64,000 nucleotides of DNA from the NCBI GenBank assembly GCA_943330705.2, contig CALQIT020000004.1:1-64000 (forward strand). Direction: 5' to 3'. Below the pieces are notes generated by a model. That model saw only the letters and a list, made by a program, of their open reading frames with translations, was not told the DNA's origin and did not search any database. A program made the translations under genes and the position numbers. The stretch is from Streptomyces griseus (GTDB lineage: Bacteria > Bdellovibrionota > Bdellovibrionia > Bdellovibrionales > Bdellovibrionaceae). Below, piece after piece: positions 1-12,438 of the stretch. Each line of letters starts with the position of its first letter. Position 1 is the first letter of the stretch.

Positions 1-192
1 GTTCTTTGTGTCGAAATGGAGGCCGCCGCTCTGTTTTCCGTCGCCAAATTCCGCGGCGTTCAGATTGCGTCGGCCTTCACCATTAGCGACAGCTTAGCGG
101 ATTTGCAGTGGCAGCCCCACCTGATCCACCCTTTGGTTAACGACCAGTTAGAGCTACTTTTTGCCGTCGCCGTCAAAACCGCCATGGGCTAG
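1..192 (+). CDS. Nucleoside phosphorylase, C-terminal fragment (5' end outside window)
   Basis: The reading frame is open from base 1 to a TAG at 190-192 and gives 63 residues. It contains the EMEAAALFSVAK segment typical of the purine/uridine phosphorylase (PNP_UDP_1) family, where this glutamate-rich stretch contacts the ribose of the nucleoside, followed by a SDSLAD segment matching the usual conserved Asp region. These enzymes cleave nucleosides with phosphate in the cytoplasm. The last 19 codons lie inside the 57-bp sequence that recurs at 2195-2251, so the present C-terminus may have been rebuilt by an insertion. Substrate cannot be told from this piece. The family call is fairly firm. 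Confidence 0.8.
   Translation, partial: VLCVEMEAAALFSVAKFRGVQIASAFTISDSLADLQWQPHLIHPLVNDQLELLFAVAVKTAMG
114..170. repeat. Left copy of 57-bp direct repeat bounding the AbiE module
   Basis: Bases 114-170 match 2195-2251 with 55 of 57 identities; the differences are at 123/2204 (G/A) and 166/2247 (G/T). This copy lies inside the 3' end of the phosphorylase gene. A repeat that duplicates a gene's 3' end and encloses a small gene cassette has the layout of attachment-site duplication by a site-specific integrating element. No integrase gene is seen between the copies. Confidence 0.85.
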
Positions 193-599
193 AGCTTTGC
201 TTGTCCAACCCATAAAAAAAAATACTGCCAAAACAAGAATCAGCGTGTTGAGCCGCGAATACTTCTGCACGACTTACTACTTTTTTCTTCGCCCTATGAT
301 TTGTTGGCTCTTAAAATTCCAACTCAAAAACGCGTTCCGTTTGAGAATTCTTTAATATTTGTCTCGTCCATAAAATCTACCATAAGCCCCGAAGACCTGT
401 CCCGACGCCCCGGCATCGCTTCTCAGTGCTCACTGGGCGGGTTTCTCCTGTTTGCGGCTTGATCCTGGCCTTTATGGCTCAAATTGAGGCAAGCGGTCTG
501 GGCTGACGAAATTTGCATAGTCAAATATTATACATTAAATTTATACTAGTAAAATTATATATTTATGACATATAACTACATGAAATTTGAATCAAGTAA
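193..599. other. Intergenic region upstream of the AbiE module
   Basis: No convincing gene was found here on either strand. Bases 314-350 can fold into an imperfect hairpin (CTCAAA/TTTGAG core) followed by a T-rich stretch, which could end phosphorylase transcription, but this is weak. Bases 505-600 are strikingly AT-rich and lead into the promoter at 600-628. The middle part (about 390-490) is more GC-rich than the surroundings and has no recognisable content. Confidence 0.5.
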
Positions 600-628
600 T
601 TGACAGAAAGTGCCGATTCATTTAGTAT
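600..628 (+). promoter_or_regulatory. Sigma-70-type promoter of the AbiE module
   Basis: A perfect -35 hexamer TTGACA at 600-605 is followed, after exactly 17 bases, by TAGTAT at 623-628 (four of six consensus bases). Transcription would start near 635, giving a leader just long enough to hold the strong Shine-Dalgarno AGAAGGAGG at 637-645. This argues that translation begins at ATG 651 rather than at the upstream in-frame TTG 600, which is part of the -35 box. Confidence 0.6.
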
Positions 629-650
629 GAAACTGAAGAAGGAGGCCTCT

Positions 651-1235
651 ATGGAGCGAACAGTATTGGATCAGCTTAAAGCGCATCTTCGCGCCGGGCG
701 TGTGTATCGACGCGAAGAGCTTGTTCAATGGTCAAAGAATGTTGATCGCCATTTGAAGACCCTTACCACTGAAGGCGTGCTTAAAAAGCTTCGCACTGGG
801 CTCTACTATTGCCCTCGAAAATTTGAGTTTGGTGAAGCTCCTGCGGAAGAGCATGCACTCGTTGAAGCCTTTCTCCGCTCAGACCGCTTTGTTGTGACCT
901 CTCCTAATCTCTTCAATCAGCTGGGGCTTGGAACCACTCAGCTCTACAACAAAAGGGTCGTCTATAATCAAAAACGTCACGGAACATTTGACCTGGGTGG
1001 GCGCTCGTATGTTTTTCATAAACGAATGAACGTTCCTAGGCGTCTTACCCCTGAGTTTCTATTGGTGGATCTCGTCAACGAACTCGATACCCTTGCTGAA
1101 GATCGAGAGGCGCTCATGGCGCGTGTGAAAGCAAAAGCTGCGGAAATGGATCATAAACGTCTTTCCAAAGCGGTTTCTCTATTTGGAAATTGCTCAACCC
1201 AAAAGAAGTTCAGGGAGTTTCTAAATCATGCCTGA
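651..1235 (+). CDS. AbiEi-like (DUF6088-type) antitoxin/regulator of a type IV toxin-antitoxin pair
   Basis: The protein has about 194 residues. An N-terminal winged-helix-like segment (YRREELVQW ... LTTEGVLKKLRTGLYYCPR) is the usual signature of AbiEi/DUF6088 proteins: a small helix-turn-helix, then a basic G-L-Y-x-x-P-R turn. A longer alpha/beta part follows. In AbiE systems this partner represses its own operon and neutralises the nucleotidyltransferase toxin without binding it. Start ATG 651 is chosen because AGAAGGAGG lies five bases upstream and the promoter overlaps the longer candidate. The 3' end overlaps the toxin gene by eight bases, so the two are translationally coupled. Whether it protects against phage here is not shown. 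Confidence 0.75.
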   Translation: MERTVLDQLKAHLRAGRVYRREELVQWSKNVDRHLKTLTTEGVLKKLRTGLYYCPRKFEFGEAPAEEHALVEAFLRSDRFVVTSPNLFNQLGLGTTQLYNKRVVYNQKRHGTFDLGGRSYVFHKRMNVPRRLTPEFLLVDLVNELDTLAEDREALMARVKAKAAEMDHKRLSKAVSLFGNCSTQKKFREFLNHA

Positions 1236-2175
1236 GGAATTTCTTCATGATCGCAAAGACTTTAGTGCTCTTGTTGATACTGTCGCCACAAACGAGAAAA
1301 TAAACGATCCGGCCTTGGTGGAAAAAGATTACTGGATCATGCATTCACTCTACGGCCTAAAAGCTCTTGGCCTTTCGTTTGAACTCAAAGGAGGCACATC
1401 CCTTTCAAAGAGATTCGACGTTATCCAGCGGTTCTCTGAAGATATTGATATCCGCATTGAGCCCTTTGACGGAATGAAAGTCTCTTCCGGGCCCAATCAT
1501 GACAAGCCAGCTCACATTGAATCTAGACGACGTTTTTTCGAGGCGCTTAAAAATAAGATTAAAATTTCAGGGATCAAAGCGGTTGATCGTGACACCGAAT
1601 ACGATGACCAGAAACTCAGGAATGCCGGTCTTAGACTTCGCTACGACAGTTTTTATGGGTCGGTGCAGGGCCTCAAAGACGGCATTCTACTTGAGGTCGG
1701 GTTTGATCAGACAAGTCCGCATCACGGCGTTACGATCTCGTCCTGGGCCCTTGAATTCGCACTTAAAAGTAACCTCAAGGTTATCAATAATCGCGCTCAA
1801 GGCATCATTTGCTACAATCCCGAATACACCTTCGTCGAAAAGCTGCAAACAGTTGCCAAAAAATTCCGACAATTCAAAGAATCCGGACAACTGGGAAAAA
1901 ACTTTCTTCGCCACTACTACGATATTCACAGACTTCTTGATCTTCCTGCAGTGCAAAAGTTCATTGGAACCCCCGATTATCTTGAGCATAAAAAGAAGCG
2001 CTTTCGCAGCGAGAACCAAGACCTCGTTGAAGGCGGTGCCTTTGAATTCTCAGATCCGGAAATTTTTAAGAAGTTCGAGATGGAGTACAAAAAGACCGAG
2101 GCTCTTTACTATCGCGGGCAAGTGCCTCTGAGTGAAATTGTTGCCAGAATTAAAAAAGATCTGGCCCGATTGTAA
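1228..2175 (+). CDS. AbiEii/AbiGii-family nucleotidyltransferase toxin
   Basis: This 315-residue protein carries the hallmarks of the AbiEii/DUF1814 nucleotidyltransferase fold: an early EKDYWI segment, then ELKGGTSLSKRFDVI with the G-G-T/S motif, then a SEDIDI double aspartate that binds the metal and NTP. A later EKL motif near residue 210 fits the conserved lysine region. Such enzymes stall growth by transferring nucleotides to RNA targets, in known cases the tRNA acceptor stem; the target here is unknown. Its ATG overlaps the antitoxin stop. All motif residues look intact, so this module is probably active, unlike the second AbiE locus at 4796-5500. Confidence 0.85.
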   Translation: MPEEFLHDRKDFSALVDTVATNEKINDPALVEKDYWIMHSLYGLKALGLSFELKGGTSLSKRFDVIQRFSEDIDIRIEPFDGMKVSSGPNHDKPAHIESRRRFFEALKNKIKISGIKAVDRDTEYDDQKLRNAGLRLRYDSFYGSVQGLKDGILLEVGFDQTSPHHGVTISSWALEFALKSNLKVINNRAQGIICYNPEYTFVEKLQTVAKKFRQFKESGQLGKNFLRHYYDIHRLLDLPAVQKFIGTPDYLEHKKKRFRSENQDLVEGGAFEFSDPEIFKKFEMEYKKTEALYYRGQVPLSEIVARIKKDLARL

Positions 2176-2194
2176 GACGGATTTTACATCTATC

Positions 2195-2251
2195 GCCCCA
2201 CCTAATCCACCCTTTGGTTAACGACCAGTTAGAGCTACTTTTTGCCTTCGC
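2195..2251. repeat. Right copy of 57-bp direct repeat bounding the AbiE module
   Basis: Partner of 114-170 with two mismatches. This copy starts 20 bases after the toxin stop and overlaps the stop and last codons of the minus-strand lipoprotein gene, whose TAG is at 2235-2237. The phosphorylase reading frame stays open through this copy, so it looks like the displaced original 3' end of that gene. Confidence 0.85.
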
Positions 2252-3584
2252 AATACCAAGCCTGAAGATCGATTTCTTGCTCTTCACAATTAGTAACTGA
2301 GCTACATTTTGCGTTAAGCAAAGCTTGGCAGGCTTGTTTCGCTTTTGATTGTGCTACAAAATCATCGGACCCGTAACCTATGAATACATTTTTCGTCGAA
2401 TAGTCCTCTGTCATACAGGCCCATTTTGTAGGGTTCGACGGCTGAGGTTGGGGCAAGGGTCTTGGAACAGGGCCTGGTAATGGCACTGGTGCTGGCGAAG
2501 GCGCTGGCCGTCCGGGCTGGTGGGGCTCAGAGGTCGAAGGCTCCTGCTGTTCAGTTGGCTGGTCATCCTGCTCTTTAGTCAAAGACATCATGGAGTTTGC
2601 AAATTTATCTCGCTCGGCTGTAAAGACTTTTTCGGTAACTTCCAGACCATCGACAAAAAATTTTCCATCGCCATTTCTTCCATTTAAGGTGACAGTCGCC
2701 TTAAGCTTAGAACTGGCGCCTGAGGGTTCTTGCAAATACTGCAGGTCTTCTTCTATTCCGCCAAAAATCTGAGGCACTGACGCTTGACCATCTTTGGCAA
2801 TAGCGATCGTCGTCTGCGTTTTCAAATTCTGATTGCCGGAGATCAAATGAGCATGGCCATCAAGATCCACGGCGCGAAGATCAAAAGCCGCCTTCATGTT
2901 TGTCTTAATATTGATCGATTCCTCAGGACTTTGAGTCCCGGGAAGGGACTGCTCAATCTCGAAAGCCATATTGATATTGCCACTTCGGACCTCGAGCTCC
3001 TTAGCAAGTTTATCATCGAGCACACGATAATTCATTTTCACAGATGCTTTAAACTTGCAGACTGTCGCCGCAGATGACTCTTTGCAAGGACCTGCGCCAT
3101 CAGCCCCTGCTATTTCTATTTCTAGATTCATTTCGATAGGACAAGCACTGCCTGAGATCTTCATATGCATCGGAGGAAATTGCCCCGCAGCACCACTTAA
3201 AGATTTATTCTGATTTTCAGCCTTGGGAAGATCGATTTTACATTGGGACGATTGCAGGGATTGCCCCAATGTTTGACCCTTTTTCTGCATGGCAGACTTG
3301 CCATCTGGAGGCAAAGCAGACTTGCCGTCAGGGGCCAAATTAGCTGTACTAGAATCAAGAACAAGGGTCGCCAAAATTTGATTATTTCCAGTTCCTGCTT
3401 TTCCCCGTCCCATGGTATTTCCAGCCTCAAATAATGCTGTCTGTCCGCTAAAAGCACCACTTGCAACGCCAGTTATTTTAGAATTTTTTGGGTCTCCGGA
3501 AGGGCCATTGCCGCCGGATCCACCACCGGTACCACATCCTGCCAAAAAAACCATTAATACCAGACTTTGAATTTGTAATTTCAT
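2235..3584 (-). CDS. Exported lipoprotein with proline-rich linker and C-terminal cysteine module
   Basis: This 449-residue protein starts with a signal peptide and a lipobox LAGC (lipidated Cys17), followed by a Gly/Ser-rich tether, so it should be anchored on the outer or inner membrane facing the periplasm or surface. A direct repeat of about nine residues (L-A/P-P-D-G-K-S-A) lies near residues 85-103. The middle is a beta-rich domain of unknown family. Residues about 345-388 form a Pro-rich linker, then a C-terminal module of about 60 residues with a W-x-C, F-x-G-x-G, A-x-x-x-C, C-x-x-x-x-x-C pattern. Similar modules occur twice in the next upstream gene, so the two probably share a role. 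No catalytic motif is seen. Confidence 0.65.
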   Translation of the reverse strand: MKLQIQSLVLMVFLAGCGTGGGSGGNGPSGDPKNSKITGVASGAFSGQTALFEAGNTMGRGKAGTGNNQILATLVLDSSTANLAPDGKSALPPDGKSAMQKKGQTLGQSLQSSQCKIDLPKAENQNKSLSGAAGQFPPMHMKISGSACPIEMNLEIEIAGADGAGPCKESSAATVCKFKASVKMNYRVLDDKLAKELEVRSGNINMAFEIEQSLPGTQSPEESINIKTNMKAAFDLRAVDLDGHAHLISGNQNLKTQTTIAIAKDGQASVPQIFGGIEEDLQYLQEPSGASSKLKATVTLNGRNGDGKFFVDGLEVTEKVFTAERDKFANSMMSLTKEQDDQPTEQQEPSTSEPHQPGRPAPSPAPVPLPGPVPRPLPQPQPSNPTKWACMTEDYSTKNVFIGYGSDDFVAQSKAKQACQALLNAKCSSVTNCEEQEIDLQAWYCEGKK

Positions 3585-4612: not shown

Positions 4613-4795
4613 GGAAGCAAAAAGTGCGAAGCAAATTGAGATTGAGAAGTAGGCTTAATTCACCTCCTGTCCTCCAGAAAAACCTGAGTAGTAACGGTCT
4701 ATCCAGTTTCTTCTGTCATTTGCAGGCTATCCCTTGGGACTTGGTCCGTATAAAAGTTGACTTTATTTTTAAAAAATGTCAAAATTTATACCATA

Positions 4796-5362
4796 ATGAC
4801 AAAGCTACCAAAAACCCTTCAGAATGGACCTTTTACCTATAAACAAGCCATGGCCGCTGGACTCAACTTGAGAGCAGTCAGACAACTTGTTGCCGATGGG
4901 CAATGCTACACAGTCGCCAAGGGCGTCTATATGCCTACGAGCGTTGATTATAATGAAGTAAATCAATTTAAGGCGGCCACACTTGTTGTGGGAGAACCTT
5001 CGGCAATTTGTTTGGTCTCTGCACTTTCGGTGTATGGGCTTACCGACGTTATTCCACGCAAGACGTGGATCACAGTGCCAGCAAAAAAAAGAACTCAAAT
5101 ATCAACTCTTAAAGTTTTGCGCCAAAGCGATCCCCAATGGAGTATTGGAATTGAAAAAAGAGACGGCTATATGGTCACCTCCATTGAGCGCACGCTGGTT
5201 GAATCTTTCTGCTATAAAAATATGATTGGCAGCACCGTCCCTATCGAAGCTCTGCGAGAAGCCGTCAGAAAAAAACTAACGACTCCTTCTAAAGTGCTCG
5301 ATATGGCAAAAAAAATGAAAGTCGTTCACCGCATACTCCCGTACTTAGAGGCGATGGCGTGA
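4796..5362 (+). CDS. AbiEi-type antitoxin (AbiEi_4 domain), partner of a truncated toxin
   Basis: The 188-residue product starts with FTYKQAMAAGLNLRAVRQLVADG, the winged-helix domain of AbiEi_4 antitoxins, followed by the basic beta turn V-A-K-G-V-Y and by the C-terminal antitoxin domain with SALSVYGLTD and SIERTLVESF, both typical of this family. ATG 4796 fits the domain start. It has no Shine-Dalgarno, and a promoter-like TTGACT-17-CAAAAT at 4757-4785 would place the transcript start almost on the ATG, so leaderless translation is possible. The stop overlaps the GTG of the toxin remnant (ATGGCGTGA arrangement). It belongs to a different subtype from the module at 651-2175. Confidence 0.8.
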   Translation: MTKLPKTLQNGPFTYKQAMAAGLNLRAVRQLVADGQCYTVAKGVYMPTSVDYNEVNQFKAATLVVGEPSAICLVSALSVYGLTDVIPRKTWITVPAKKRTQISTLKVLRQSDPQWSIGIEKRDGYMVTSIERTLVESFCYKNMIGSTVPIEALREAVRKKLTTPSKVLDMAKKMKVVHRILPYLEAMA

Positions 5363-5577
5363 GCAAGATCATTTCCCCCGATAAAATCCAACTGGAACTC
5401 AACAAACTCGCCAAAGCTTCGAAAACTCTTTCGGTGAATGACCTTCGCATGATTTTGGCCTTGGAGCGTGTGATCGCCCACTCAATTACAAATCAATCTG
5501 TAAATCGAGGTGGCCGTGTGGCTAATTATTCAAGCTTGGGGCTCGGCCCGGCTGGATGCCGTATTCTGGCCGCGTGA
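5359..5577 (+). pseudogene. AbiEii toxin remnant, truncated after about 46 codons
   Basis: GTG 5359 begins a protein whose first 46 residues, including SVNDLRMILALERVIAH, match the N-terminal start of AbiEii toxins that pair with AbiEi_4 antitoxins. Full toxins of this family are near 280-300 residues and continue into the nucleotidyltransferase core. Here homology stops at codon 46-47, exactly where the palindromic element begins (5496), and the frame ends at 5577 inside that element. The G-S and D-x-D catalytic motifs are absent. The product cannot be an active toxin, leaving the upstream antitoxin as an orphan. Confidence 0.75.
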
Positions 5578-5640
5578 GGGCCAGGACGGCCCGTCCCGAA
5601 GCTGGAATAATTAGCCACAAGGCCACCTCGATTTACAGAT
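5496..5640. repeat. 145-bp palindromic element with 42-bp inverted arms
   Basis: Bases 5496-5537 and 5599-5640 are inverted copies with two mismatched pairs out of 42 (involving 5516 and 5532). The GC-rich centre holds a further small hairpin (CTGGCC/GGCCAG around 5565-5585). The element ends seven bases before the stop codon of the RND permease on the other strand and begins inside the toxin remnant. It is far longer than a rho-independent terminator and lacks a T-tract, so a MITE-like or REP/BIME-like element is more likely. It may still stop transcription from both sides. Confidence 0.8.
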
Positions 5641-8802: not shown

Positions 8803-9726
8803 CTATCCTTTTTTTGGTCTGAATAATCCTGCCTGGCCAACTTTTGACGGCAAGGTCTTTCCTAATTGTTTTCCCATCCAATGATTCAGCTCAATTAAAC
8901 TATTAAGATCAATGCCGGTTGGTACTTTCATACGATCAAACAAATACACGACGTCCTCTGTTGCAACATTGCCAGCAGCACCTGGTGCATATGGGCAACC
9001 ACCAAGACCACCTAGACTTGCGTCAAAGGTGGTTATTCCTAAACTATAAGCGGCAAAGATATTAGCAATGGCTGTGCCGCGAGTATCATGAAAATGGCCC
9101 GCTATTTTTTTAAGTGACAGGACTTTTTTTAGCTTTTTAAACAAGCTAATAACTTCATTTGGTGTCGCAACCCCGATGGTGTCACCAATCGAAATCTCGA
9201 AACATCCCATGCGATGCAGACGCTGAGCCATCTTTAATACAACTTTTTCGGAAATGGGCCCCTCGAAGGGGCAAGCAAAACAAGTCGAAAGATATCCGCG
9301 TACTTTAATTTTCTTCTGCTTCGCAATCTTAACAATAGGTGCAAATCGCTCAAAACTTTCCTCGATCGAGCAATTGATATTTTTTTGTGAAAACGTTTCC
9401 GAACAAGACGCAAAAATTGCGATCTCCTGCACGCCAGAGCGCAAAGCATCTTGCATACCCTTTTCGTTCGGAACCAGAGCAGATAATCCAACTTCGCTAG
9501 CGATCTTTCCCTTGGCCTGGGCTGCCACCAAAGTCGACACGACCTCGATGGATCCGGCCATTTGTGGGACGCGGTCGGGTCTAACAAATGCGCCAACCTC
9601 AAGGCGCAACAGACCTGCCTGAATCATTTTGTAGGCGGCCTCAATGCGAACCTGCGCAGATATATTCACCTTTTCATTTTGCAGGCCATCTCTAAGCCCA
9701 ACTTCGACGATCTTTACGGATTTCAC
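8803..9726 (-). CDS. mvaB: Hydroxymethylglutaryl-CoA lyase
   Basis: The 307-residue TIM-barrel enzyme splits HMG-CoA into acetoacetate and acetyl-CoA, the last step of leucine breakdown. VGLRDGLQNE near the N-terminus holds the R-D metal/substrate residues, GHFHDTRG supplies metal-binding histidines, and GGLGGCPYAPGAAGNVATED is the HMG-CoA lyase signature with the catalytic cysteine. The length is close to other bacterial forms. Its ATG overlaps the stop of the biotin carrier gene (ATGA), showing coupling with the carboxylase genes. It is distinguished from homocitrate or isopropylmalate synthases by the GGCPYAPGA motif. Confidence 0.95.
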   Translation of the reverse strand: MKSVKIVEVGLRDGLQNEKVNISAQVRIEAAYKMIQAGLLRLEVGAFVRPDRVPQMAGSIEVVSTLVAAQAKGKIASEVGLSALVPNEKGMQDALRSGVQEIAIFASCSETFSQKNINCSIEESFERFAPIVKIAKQKKIKVRGYLSTCFACPFEGPISEKVVLKMAQRLHRMGCFEISIGDTIGVATPNEVISLFKKLKKVLSLKKIAGHFHDTRGTAIANIFAAYSLGITTFDASLGGLGGCPYAPGAAGNVATEDVVYLFDRMKVPTGIDLNSLIELNHWMGKQLGKTLPSKVGQAGLFRPKKG

Positions 9727-10184
9727 GGCTTTTGTCCTTTTTCCGGCCTCTTGGAATCCGGCGGCTTGGGCTCGGACCTCATAGAATCTGACCCGCTGGG
9801 CTCGGCCTTTTTAACTTTAGCCAATAGCTTTCCCAATCCAACTTGCTCGCCAGCCTGGCACTTGACGAACTCAAGAACTCCATCGGAATCTGCCTTCATC
9901 GTGTATTCCATTTTCATCGCTTCCATGACTAAGACGGCTTCGCCAATCCTAATTTGGTCACCAACAAATTTTAAGATTTTTGTTATTTTGCCTGGCATTG
10001 GCGCTAAAATTTCACCGTTCGAGGCCTTAGTGGCAGCGGTTTTTCCAAATAATTTTTTATCATTTTCAATCTTCCAAATTCGACCTTGAAAGTGAATCCA
10101 TAAGTGTCCATTGACCGACTGCGCTTCAGCGTTGAAAATTTGATTTTGGTATTCCAACTCAACCCGCATCAGACTCCCCTCCAA
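9723..10184 (-). CDS. Biotin carboxyl carrier protein of the methylcrotonyl-CoA carboxylase
   Basis: This 153-residue protein has a biotinyl domain from about residue 60 to 130: MPGKITKI, then EAMKME with the biotinylated lysine, then a G-V-L-E-F and G-E-Q-V-G segment. A charged Pro/Lys/Glu-rich tail of about 25 residues follows. In most MCC and PCC enzymes this domain is fused to the biotin carboxylase; here it is separate, encoded next to and overlapping both the carboxylase (by 16 bases) and the HMG-CoA lyase. It carries carboxybiotin between the two catalytic subunits in the cytoplasm. Confidence 0.9.
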   Translation of the reverse strand: MEGSLMRVELEYQNQIFNAEAQSVNGHLWIHFQGRIWKIENDKKLFGKTAATKASNGEILAPMPGKITKILKFVGDQIRIGEAVLVMEAMKMEYTMKADSDGVLEFVKCQAGEQVGLGKLLAKVKKAEPSGSDSMRSEPKPPDSKRPEKGQKP

Positions 10185-11665: not shown

Positions 11666-12438
11666 GAATTTCTCCAGCTAGGGGGGCGTTTTTCTAAAAA
11701 GCTTTGCAAACCCTCTTGTCCTTCAACGCCAACTCGCTTTTCAGAAATCGCAAGTACTGACTTTTGCCGGACCTCGGTCCAATTCAAATCACCAATTTTT
11801 GCAATTAATTTCTTGGTTTCACGGACGGCCTCGGGTCCACACTCTTGAAATACAGCCAACCAGTCTTGCAGCTTCGCTTGCAATTGCGACTCGGGCACAA
11901 TCTCATGGACTAAGCCCAGCAAAAAGCAATCCTGAGCGGTCATCATCTTTCCCGAAAGCATCCACGGAGCTACTTTCCCGTAGCTAGATTTTTTAAGAAC
12001 AAAACCACTGATTACAGCTGGGACTAGTCCCAATTTGACTTCACTGAAGCAGACCTTAGTTTTTTCTTCACAAATTACAACATCACAGACTGAAATCAAA
12101 CCAAGCGCTCCGCCAAAGGCCGCTCCATGCACCACGCCAATGATAGGAAGCGGACATTCCGCGATGGCCTCAAACATCGAAAACAAAGCGTTTGCGTCTT
12201 GTTGATTTTGCTGGATAGAAAATTGTTTTGTTGCCTGCATCATCTGCAGATCGGCACCAGCACAAAATGATTTGCCTTGGCCACGCAGAACGATGGCGCG
12301 AATATCCTTGCGCAACGACAATTCAGAAAATACCTGTGTTAACTCAGCGATCAATTCGTTATTAAAAGCGTTGTGCACCTCTGGACGATTGAGGCACACG
12401 GTCGCAATATTTTTATGCTCAGAAAATTTTAGCAGCAT
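11662..12438 (-). CDS. Enoyl-CoA hydratase family; probable 3-methylglutaconyl-CoA hydratase
   Basis: A 258-residue crotonase-fold protein. GKSFCAGADLQMM forms the CoA/oxyanion-hole loop and GAAFGGALGLISVCD the second half of the oxyanion hole. A later FSEVKLGLVPAVIS carries the glutamate expected in hydratases of the AUH/LiuC type. It would add water to 3-methylglutaconyl-CoA to give HMG-CoA, the substrate of the lyase two genes downstream. Substrate is inferred mainly from its place between the carboxyltransferase and biotin carboxylase genes. It starts three bases after the carboxyltransferase stop. Confidence 0.88.
   Translation of the reverse strand: MLLKFSEHKNIATVCLNRPEVHNAFNNELIAELTQVFSELSLRKDIRAIVLRGQGKSFCAGADLQMMQATKQFSIQQNQQDANALFSMFEAIAECPLPIIGVVHGAAFGGALGLISVCDVVICEEKTKVCFSEVKLGLVPAVISGFVLKKSSYGKVAPWMLSGKMMTAQDCFLLGLVHEIVPESQLQAKLQDWLAVFQECGPEAVRETKKLIAKIGDLNWTEVRQKSVLAISEKRVGVEGQEGLQSFLEKRPPSWRNS

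Follow-up and report, generated by a model that had tools for sequence, protein, structure and literature searches.

In this work, we have used sequence comparison to characterise an AbiE operon and its surroundings at the left end of a window of 64 kb, this being the whole stretch of DNA that was analysed. The window is the beginning of contig C4, one of the 148 contigs of a draft genome; since C4 opens within a phosphorylase gene, the window begins at a contig end. The operon lies between the 3΄ part of this nucleoside-phosphorylase-like gene and a convergent lipoprotein gene (Table 1). abiEi and abiEii overlap by 8 nt, and the operon is intact. In AbiEii the GG pair occupies residues 55–56 and the DID triplet residues 72–74, and both are invariant in all seven sequences aligned, the window's included. 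As described for the AbiE systems in the excerpted text of PMC3985639, in which the nucleotidyltransferase motif is given as hG[G/S]x15DhD, an AbiEii/DUF1814 protein bearing this motif is encoded together with an upstream AbiEi in one bicistronic operon. Judged by its sequence, the operon is a type IV AbiE toxin–antitoxin system, with a predicted toxicity and a predicted neutralisation. The NCBIfam search gave no match for AbiEi.

Table 1. Coordinates of the features found at the left end of the 64-kb window
Feature	Position	Strand	Basis or remark
Nucleoside-phosphorylase-like gene, 3΄ part (PNP_UDP_1)	1..192	+	Pfam PF01048; 5΄ part on contig C106 (L065), reverse strand
Left repeat copy	114..170	+	Inside the intact phosphorylase 3΄ end
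Interval between the copies, 2024 bp	171..2194	+	Repeat coordinates
Degenerate copy of a genome-dispersed repeat	214..393	+	Repeat comparison within its own genome
Promoter-like site TTGACA-17 nt-TAGTAT, right upstream of abiEi	600..628	+	Consensus match only
AbiEi antitoxin, predicted	651..1235	+	PADLOC AbiEi E 3e-80; Pfam DUF6088 under the cut-off
AbiEii nucleotidyltransferase toxin, predicted	1228..2175	+	Pfam AbiEii E 1.2e-26; GG-x15-DID
Right repeat copy	2195..2251	+	Phosphorylase 3΄-end remnant, trimmed ahead of the stop codon
Lipoprotein gene, convergent	2235..3584	-	About 50 C-terminal residues missing relative to the best homologue; last codons repeat-derived

The operon is bracketed by a direct repeat of 57 bp, whose two copies are identical at 55 of the 57 positions and start 2081 bp apart. 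The original prediction had described this repeat, taking the left copy for the end of the phosphorylase gene and the right copy for a stretch in the same frame that overlaps the end of the convergent lipoprotein gene, and our analyses bear it out on all these points. The pair was recovered by the window repeat search and by BLAST (E 3e-19); the left copy lies in the PF01048 gene, with 22 nt from its end to the end of the stop codon; and the right copy keeps the phosphorylase frame and overlaps the last codons of the lipoprotein gene. This right copy begins 19 bp past the abiEii stop codon and finishes at about the point from which the lipoprotein gene can be recognised. At E of at most 1e-4, comparison of the window with itself by BLAST returned the pair as the sole direct repeat whose copies lie closer than 8 kb to each other. 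Further direct repeats exist in the window, all of them shorter and weaker than the 57-bp pair.

The two genes flanking the operon differ in their state of preservation. By-eye comparison shows that the phosphorylase C-terminus is about as long as that of a Xenorhabdus homologue, so the left copy reaches the stop codon naturally. The 63-aa C-terminal part of the phosphorylase had no match in any other of the 66 family genomes searched, and thus the gene is sporadic at that sensitivity. The lipoprotein gene appears truncated by comparison with one homologue: the best one (genome G017, BLASTP E 8e-77) is 50 residues longer past the WYCEGKK end, and the truncation point falls approximately at the end of the right copy. 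The missing lipoprotein end was not found elsewhere in its own genome. The simplest reading, based on this one distant homologue, is a deletion that would account for both losses, that of the remaining part of the right copy and that of the lipoprotein end. The truncation of the lipoprotein, like the dispersed repeat at 214–393, goes beyond what the original prediction had noticed.

The 2-kb interval contains little besides the operon. Its only recognisable genes are those for AbiEi and AbiEii, and no recombinase is present among its ORFs, nor did Pfam detect one in the genes up to position 5362; the ORF list, Pfam and PADLOC agree here with the original prediction, which had noted two toxin–antitoxin genes and no recombinase between the copies. 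On the C106 side, one of the next two genes is without a Pfam domain and the other is a pantothenate kinase. Since the stretch at 214–393 is a dispersed repeat, the interval may partly be native intergenic DNA or a later insertion, and the inserted unit proper is probably shorter than the whole interval, with its right end at 2194. The nearest DNA relative, locus L079 in a MAG titled Oligoflexia bacterium, is similar to the window cassette over positions 666–2139 only. The presence in the interval of a repeat native to its own genome is an observation that counts against reading it as an insertion.

Is this arrangement found at other AbiE loci? We analysed a subfamily set consisting of the best 80 of 465 AbiEii relatives present in genome contigs which, together with the window and four family loci, gave 85 loci; 80 of these, 75 relatives among them, had enough flank. 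A locus was counted as bracketed when its upstream and downstream flanks shared a direct repeat scoring at least 38 bits; by this measure, AbiE was bracketed at 8 of the 80 testable loci, the window included, and flanking direct repeats were missing in the remaining 72. Beside the window, five bracketed loci look on inspection like duplicated target pieces. The duplicated stretch is the 3΄ end of a plasmid rep gene, including its stop codon, in Variovorax ginsengisoli (L121, 197 bp), the secA 3΄ end in a member of Omnitrophica (L158, 51 bp), a piece of an ADP-ribosylglycohydrolase gene in Oxalobacteraceae (L111, 168 bp, 83%), a 62-bp target piece in Variovorax paradoxus (L144) and a piece of a response-regulator-like gene in Limnohabitans planktonicus (L130, 282 bp), where the outer part of the repeat is a dispersed repeat in its own genome. 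The duplications at the accepted subfamily loci thus measure 51–282 bp. Two bracketed loci were rejected, L087 with several tandem-like intergenic copies and L117 with an intergenic repeat, both of dispersed appearance; the repeat at L153 (88 bp, 75%) lies further out and was not counted as a target duplication. Six pairs within the set of the best 80 share a site, and no bracketed locus is involved in them.

Flanking repeats were found in 0 of 17 further loci, drawn from 7 Burkholderiales and 12 plasmids. Two of these nineteen records were duplicates (L290 of L157, L291 of L132), leaving 17 new records, and L300 shares its site with L107, leaving 16 new sites. The genome of the window itself contains a second AbiE, of another subfamily (contig C7, L045), which has a copy of an rrf2 3΄ end on either side; the repeat consists of 96 bp at 87.5% and 61 bp at 92%, an internal stretch being missing from the right copy. 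The C7 AbiE pair adjoins an Xre-RES pair. The recurrence of this signature at unrelated genes and in unrelated bacteria suggests that these units are able to move although they encode no recombinase.

The position of the repeats was controlled at the same 85 loci, by counting direct-repeat pairs of at least 75 bits with a spacing of 1.4–3.3 kb anywhere in the sequence, the window being cut at 12 kb; each pair counts once per locus and place, and pairs are treated as independent. The central 500-bp bin around AbiE, which makes up 6% of the counted placements, held 7 of the 11 locus-level pairs (P 9e-7), and 5 of 9 when the window and L087 were left out (P 9e-5); the three central bins held 8 of 11 pairs at the subfamily loci (P 1.5e-4). 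A simple cause of this central excess may be that AbiE, unlike its flanks, is inserted DNA, rather than anything specific to AbiE. We also analysed a phylum-wide set of 100 Pfam-AbiEii loci, chosen among the matches listed for having enough flank and with the C7 case left out. Some bracketing repeat of at least 60 bits was present at 8 of the 100 loci, and the enrichment was weak: the central bin held 3 of the 11 pairs (P 0.045), and the three central bins together 4 of 11 (P 0.22). The sole phylum-wide locus accepted as a target duplication is L267, in which the 3΄ end of a rimI-like GNAT acetyltransferase gene is duplicated over 65 bp at 98%, starting 1 bp past the stop codon. On inspection, L217, L247, L256 and L234 were rejected for repeats that were intergenic, paralogous, tRNA-like or widely spaced, and L215, L220 and L257 were set aside as widely spaced.

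Similar cassettes occur bare at different sites. In Limnohabitans, the cassettes of L108/L122, L128, L131 and L145 are 92–94% identical across sites over 1.63–1.78 kb, the similarity ends just beyond the two genes, and the flanks differ. Likewise, where the L144 cassette has listed matches in 10 other Burkholderiales genomes, these stop at or near the operon ends. The search for recombination signals covered eight elements. The best common 10-mer of their repeats, with one mismatch allowed, occurs in 3 of 8, as compared with 2–3 in 15 shuffles, and exact terminal inverted repeats do not exceed 7 nt in any element (4–7 nt at most, raw lengths). The lack of a shared repeat core and of long terminal inverted repeats speaks against the action of a site-specific recombinase and against that of a classical transposase. 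The missing core bears as well on the idea of an integron cassette or a XerCD (pdif) module, whose ends would have attC or dif-like recombination sites. The site-specific insertion that the original prediction had considered is therefore unlikely, as the duplicated sequence also differs from locus to locus. Its other suggestion, a minimal mobile cassette without its own recombinase, fares better: bare operons occupy different loci and a minority of them are bracketed, so that a minimal mobile cassette is likely.

The original prediction had pointed to an empty site with a single repeat copy as a telling comparison; none was found for the window at family or order level, the relatives compared including no congener. 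Among 139 other genomes of the order, with two candidates per genome scored, none gave a reported DNA match to the end of the phosphorylase gene. For L130, no empty site was detected in 6 other Limnohabitans genomes (40 candidates per genome), and for L144 none among the matches listed in 10 other Burkholderiales genomes, 3 Variovorax (27 candidates per genome). These searches also returned weak matches (65–71%) to neighbouring genes. When E. coli strains were compared, none of 20,395 records matched any of three AbiE DNA queries, and plasmid relatives sought with the rep gene of L121 were not found.

We propose, with a probability of about one half, that the AbiE cassette was inserted in a recombinase-free manner with a long duplication of the target type, and that a deletion at its right end followed. 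The AbiE operon would have entered downstream of the phosphorylase gene as a nearly bare cassette, and its entry would have duplicated the target, with the gene's intact 3΄ end now to the left of the cassette and a remnant of this end to its right. The right copy stops 22 nt before the gene would end, so that this reading requires a second event; we infer a later deletion, which would have taken away the remainder of this copy as well as the end of the convergent lipoprotein gene. Addiction to the toxin may have stopped the repeats from recombining the cassette away. We hold only tentatively the broader view that AbiE operons in general are mobile elements free of recombinases. As bare cassettes of ~1.6 kb, they would insert often into gene 3΄ ends, leaving an intact gene and a remnant, host homologous recombination at the repeats would excise and re-insert them, and toxin addiction would remove the cells that lose them.

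A literature search (titles and abstract openings of the best-ranked part) found no report of long duplications of the target at AbiE modules. For restriction-modification gene complexes, insertion with long target duplication was reportedly described by Nobusato and colleagues in 2000 and by Furuta and colleagues in 2010. According to the excerpted texts of PMC3874152 and PMC3031569, the direct target duplications of such insertions are long (on the order of 100 bp), vary in length and show no linkage to a known mobile element. Our loci resemble these insertions in combining an addictive module with long, variable direct target duplications, and in lacking a transposase and long terminal inverted repeats. 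They differ in that the module is an AbiE, in several cases it is a gene 3΄ end that is duplicated, and no genome with the empty site is paired with them. AbiE systems are able to stabilise mobile elements such as plasmids, according to the excerpt of PMC3985639; in contrast to this role of stabiliser, the module itself appears here to be the mobile unit. If the signature of a bare cassette, a duplicated target piece and one intact gene recurs, toxin–antitoxin units would join restriction-modification systems as insertion units, and, if this is true, the mechanism would be testable through excision between the repeats, RecA dependence and retention by toxicity.

A first alternative is that the duplicated gene end was carried in by the donor. 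A foreign homologous 3΄ end with AbiE attached would have recombined homologously at the gene and been joined illegitimately just inside the recipient copy, or a circle bearing AbiE and one repeat copy would have entered by a single crossover. No recombinase would be needed, and a comparable route, homology-facilitated illegitimate recombination, is proposed in the excerpted text of PMC5361080 for the addition of effector–immunity modules to type VI secretion clusters. Here as there, a homologous anchor is present, a module is added and a displaced older gene is left downstream, with the difference that in that source the targets are type VI secretion clusters and here they are several unrelated genes. 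The two copies would come from different genomes, and they differ by 1.5–17%. All three differences in L158 are synonymous (P 0.01 if all are neutral), as are 16 of the 29 in L111 (P 0.0024). However, the synonymous share is not significant in L121 (4/7), the window (1/2), L267 (1/1) or L130 (4/10), and the L267 copies are 98% identical. Moreover, by reasoning rather than computation, about half of the differences would be synonymous also after a true target duplication with one copy under selection, so this test does not separate the two explanations. We regard a donor-carried end as a doubtful but serious competitor of recombinase-free insertion.

Two ordinary steps could also have produced the structure seen in the window, namely a tandem duplication of 114–2194 and a deletion that began within the second copy and extended into the lipoprotein gene, with AbiE having arrived earlier and separately. 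The native dispersed repeat at 214–393 sits inside such a unit, as this history would have it, but the centring of repeats on AbiE at other loci and the rrf2 case in the same genome are left unexplained, and we consider it unlikely.

Integration by an integrase typically leaves a duplicated gene 3΄ end, and the locus could be what is left of an integrative element that had its attachment site in the phosphorylase 3΄ end and whose recombinase was lost or acted in trans. The duplicated 3΄ end is shared with integrative elements of this kind, and a tyrosine recombinase gene does lie upstream of the cassette at 3 of the 85 loci (L108, L122 and L140; Pfam Phage_integrase E 3.5e-17 in L122). Against this, the interval is without a recombinase, the target gene is a different one at each bracketed locus, and the repeats have no common core beyond that of the shuffles, which makes this origin quite improbable.

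Finally, chance or an assembly artefact might be invoked, as the contig end lies 113 bp before the left copy in a draft of 148 contigs, but this is very improbable given the E value of 3e-19, the two positions at which the copies differ, so that they are not one locus assembled twice, and the same pattern in records not titled as MAGs (L121, L130 and L144).

The genome from which the window is taken carries a second AbiE pair, of a subfamily other than the window's, on contig C7 (locus L045); a copy of the rrf2 3' end lies on each side of it and an Xre-RES toxin-antitoxin pair adjoins it. At the same locus there is a broken AbiE module whose split AbiEii belongs to the window's subfamily, and this module is flanked on both sides by AAA_14-DUF4143 ATPase genes. 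The window itself also holds an AbiEi_4-type antitoxin gene with no adjoining AbiEii, which is followed by an inverted repeat.

Among the 85 loci of the window's AbiE subfamily, a tyrosine recombinase gene was found upstream of the AbiE cassette in three (L108, L122 and L140), at a distance of about 3 kb in L140, and the L122 copy matches Pfam Phage_integrase. The Limnohabitans loci L122 and L131 share a stretch with a piece of a PIN-domain (vapC-like) gene (467 bp, 89%), which is placed downstream of AbiE in the former and upstream in the latter, as if different copies of one repeat had been lost.

The dispersed repeat, of which a degenerate copy lies in the window, forms the terminus of several contigs, and a palindrome around GTGACGTCGATACGTCAC adjoins the start of several copies. 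One match was found in another genus of the order.

Features at the AbiE loci and copies of the dispersed repeat (C, contigs of the window's genome G000 unless labelled; G103, another genome)
Feature	Location	Strand
rrf2 3' end, two copies around AbiE pair	L045 (G000:C7) 9387-9736 and 11730-11880	
AbiEi gene and AbiEii interrupted by stop codons	L045 13936-15412	-
AbiEi_4-type antitoxin gene	window 4790-5362	
Inverted repeat, 145 bp (60-nt arms, 85% complementary)	window 5496-5640	
PIN-domain (vapC-like) stretch	L122, 1108-1574 after AbiEii start	
PIN-domain (vapC-like) stretch	L131, 695-1161 before AbiEii start	
Dispersed repeat copies	window 214-393; C104, C119, C65, C93, C58	
Dispersed repeat copies close to contig ends	C135, C123, C97, C71	
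Dispersed repeat copy, other genome	G103:C14:106801-106888 (L076)
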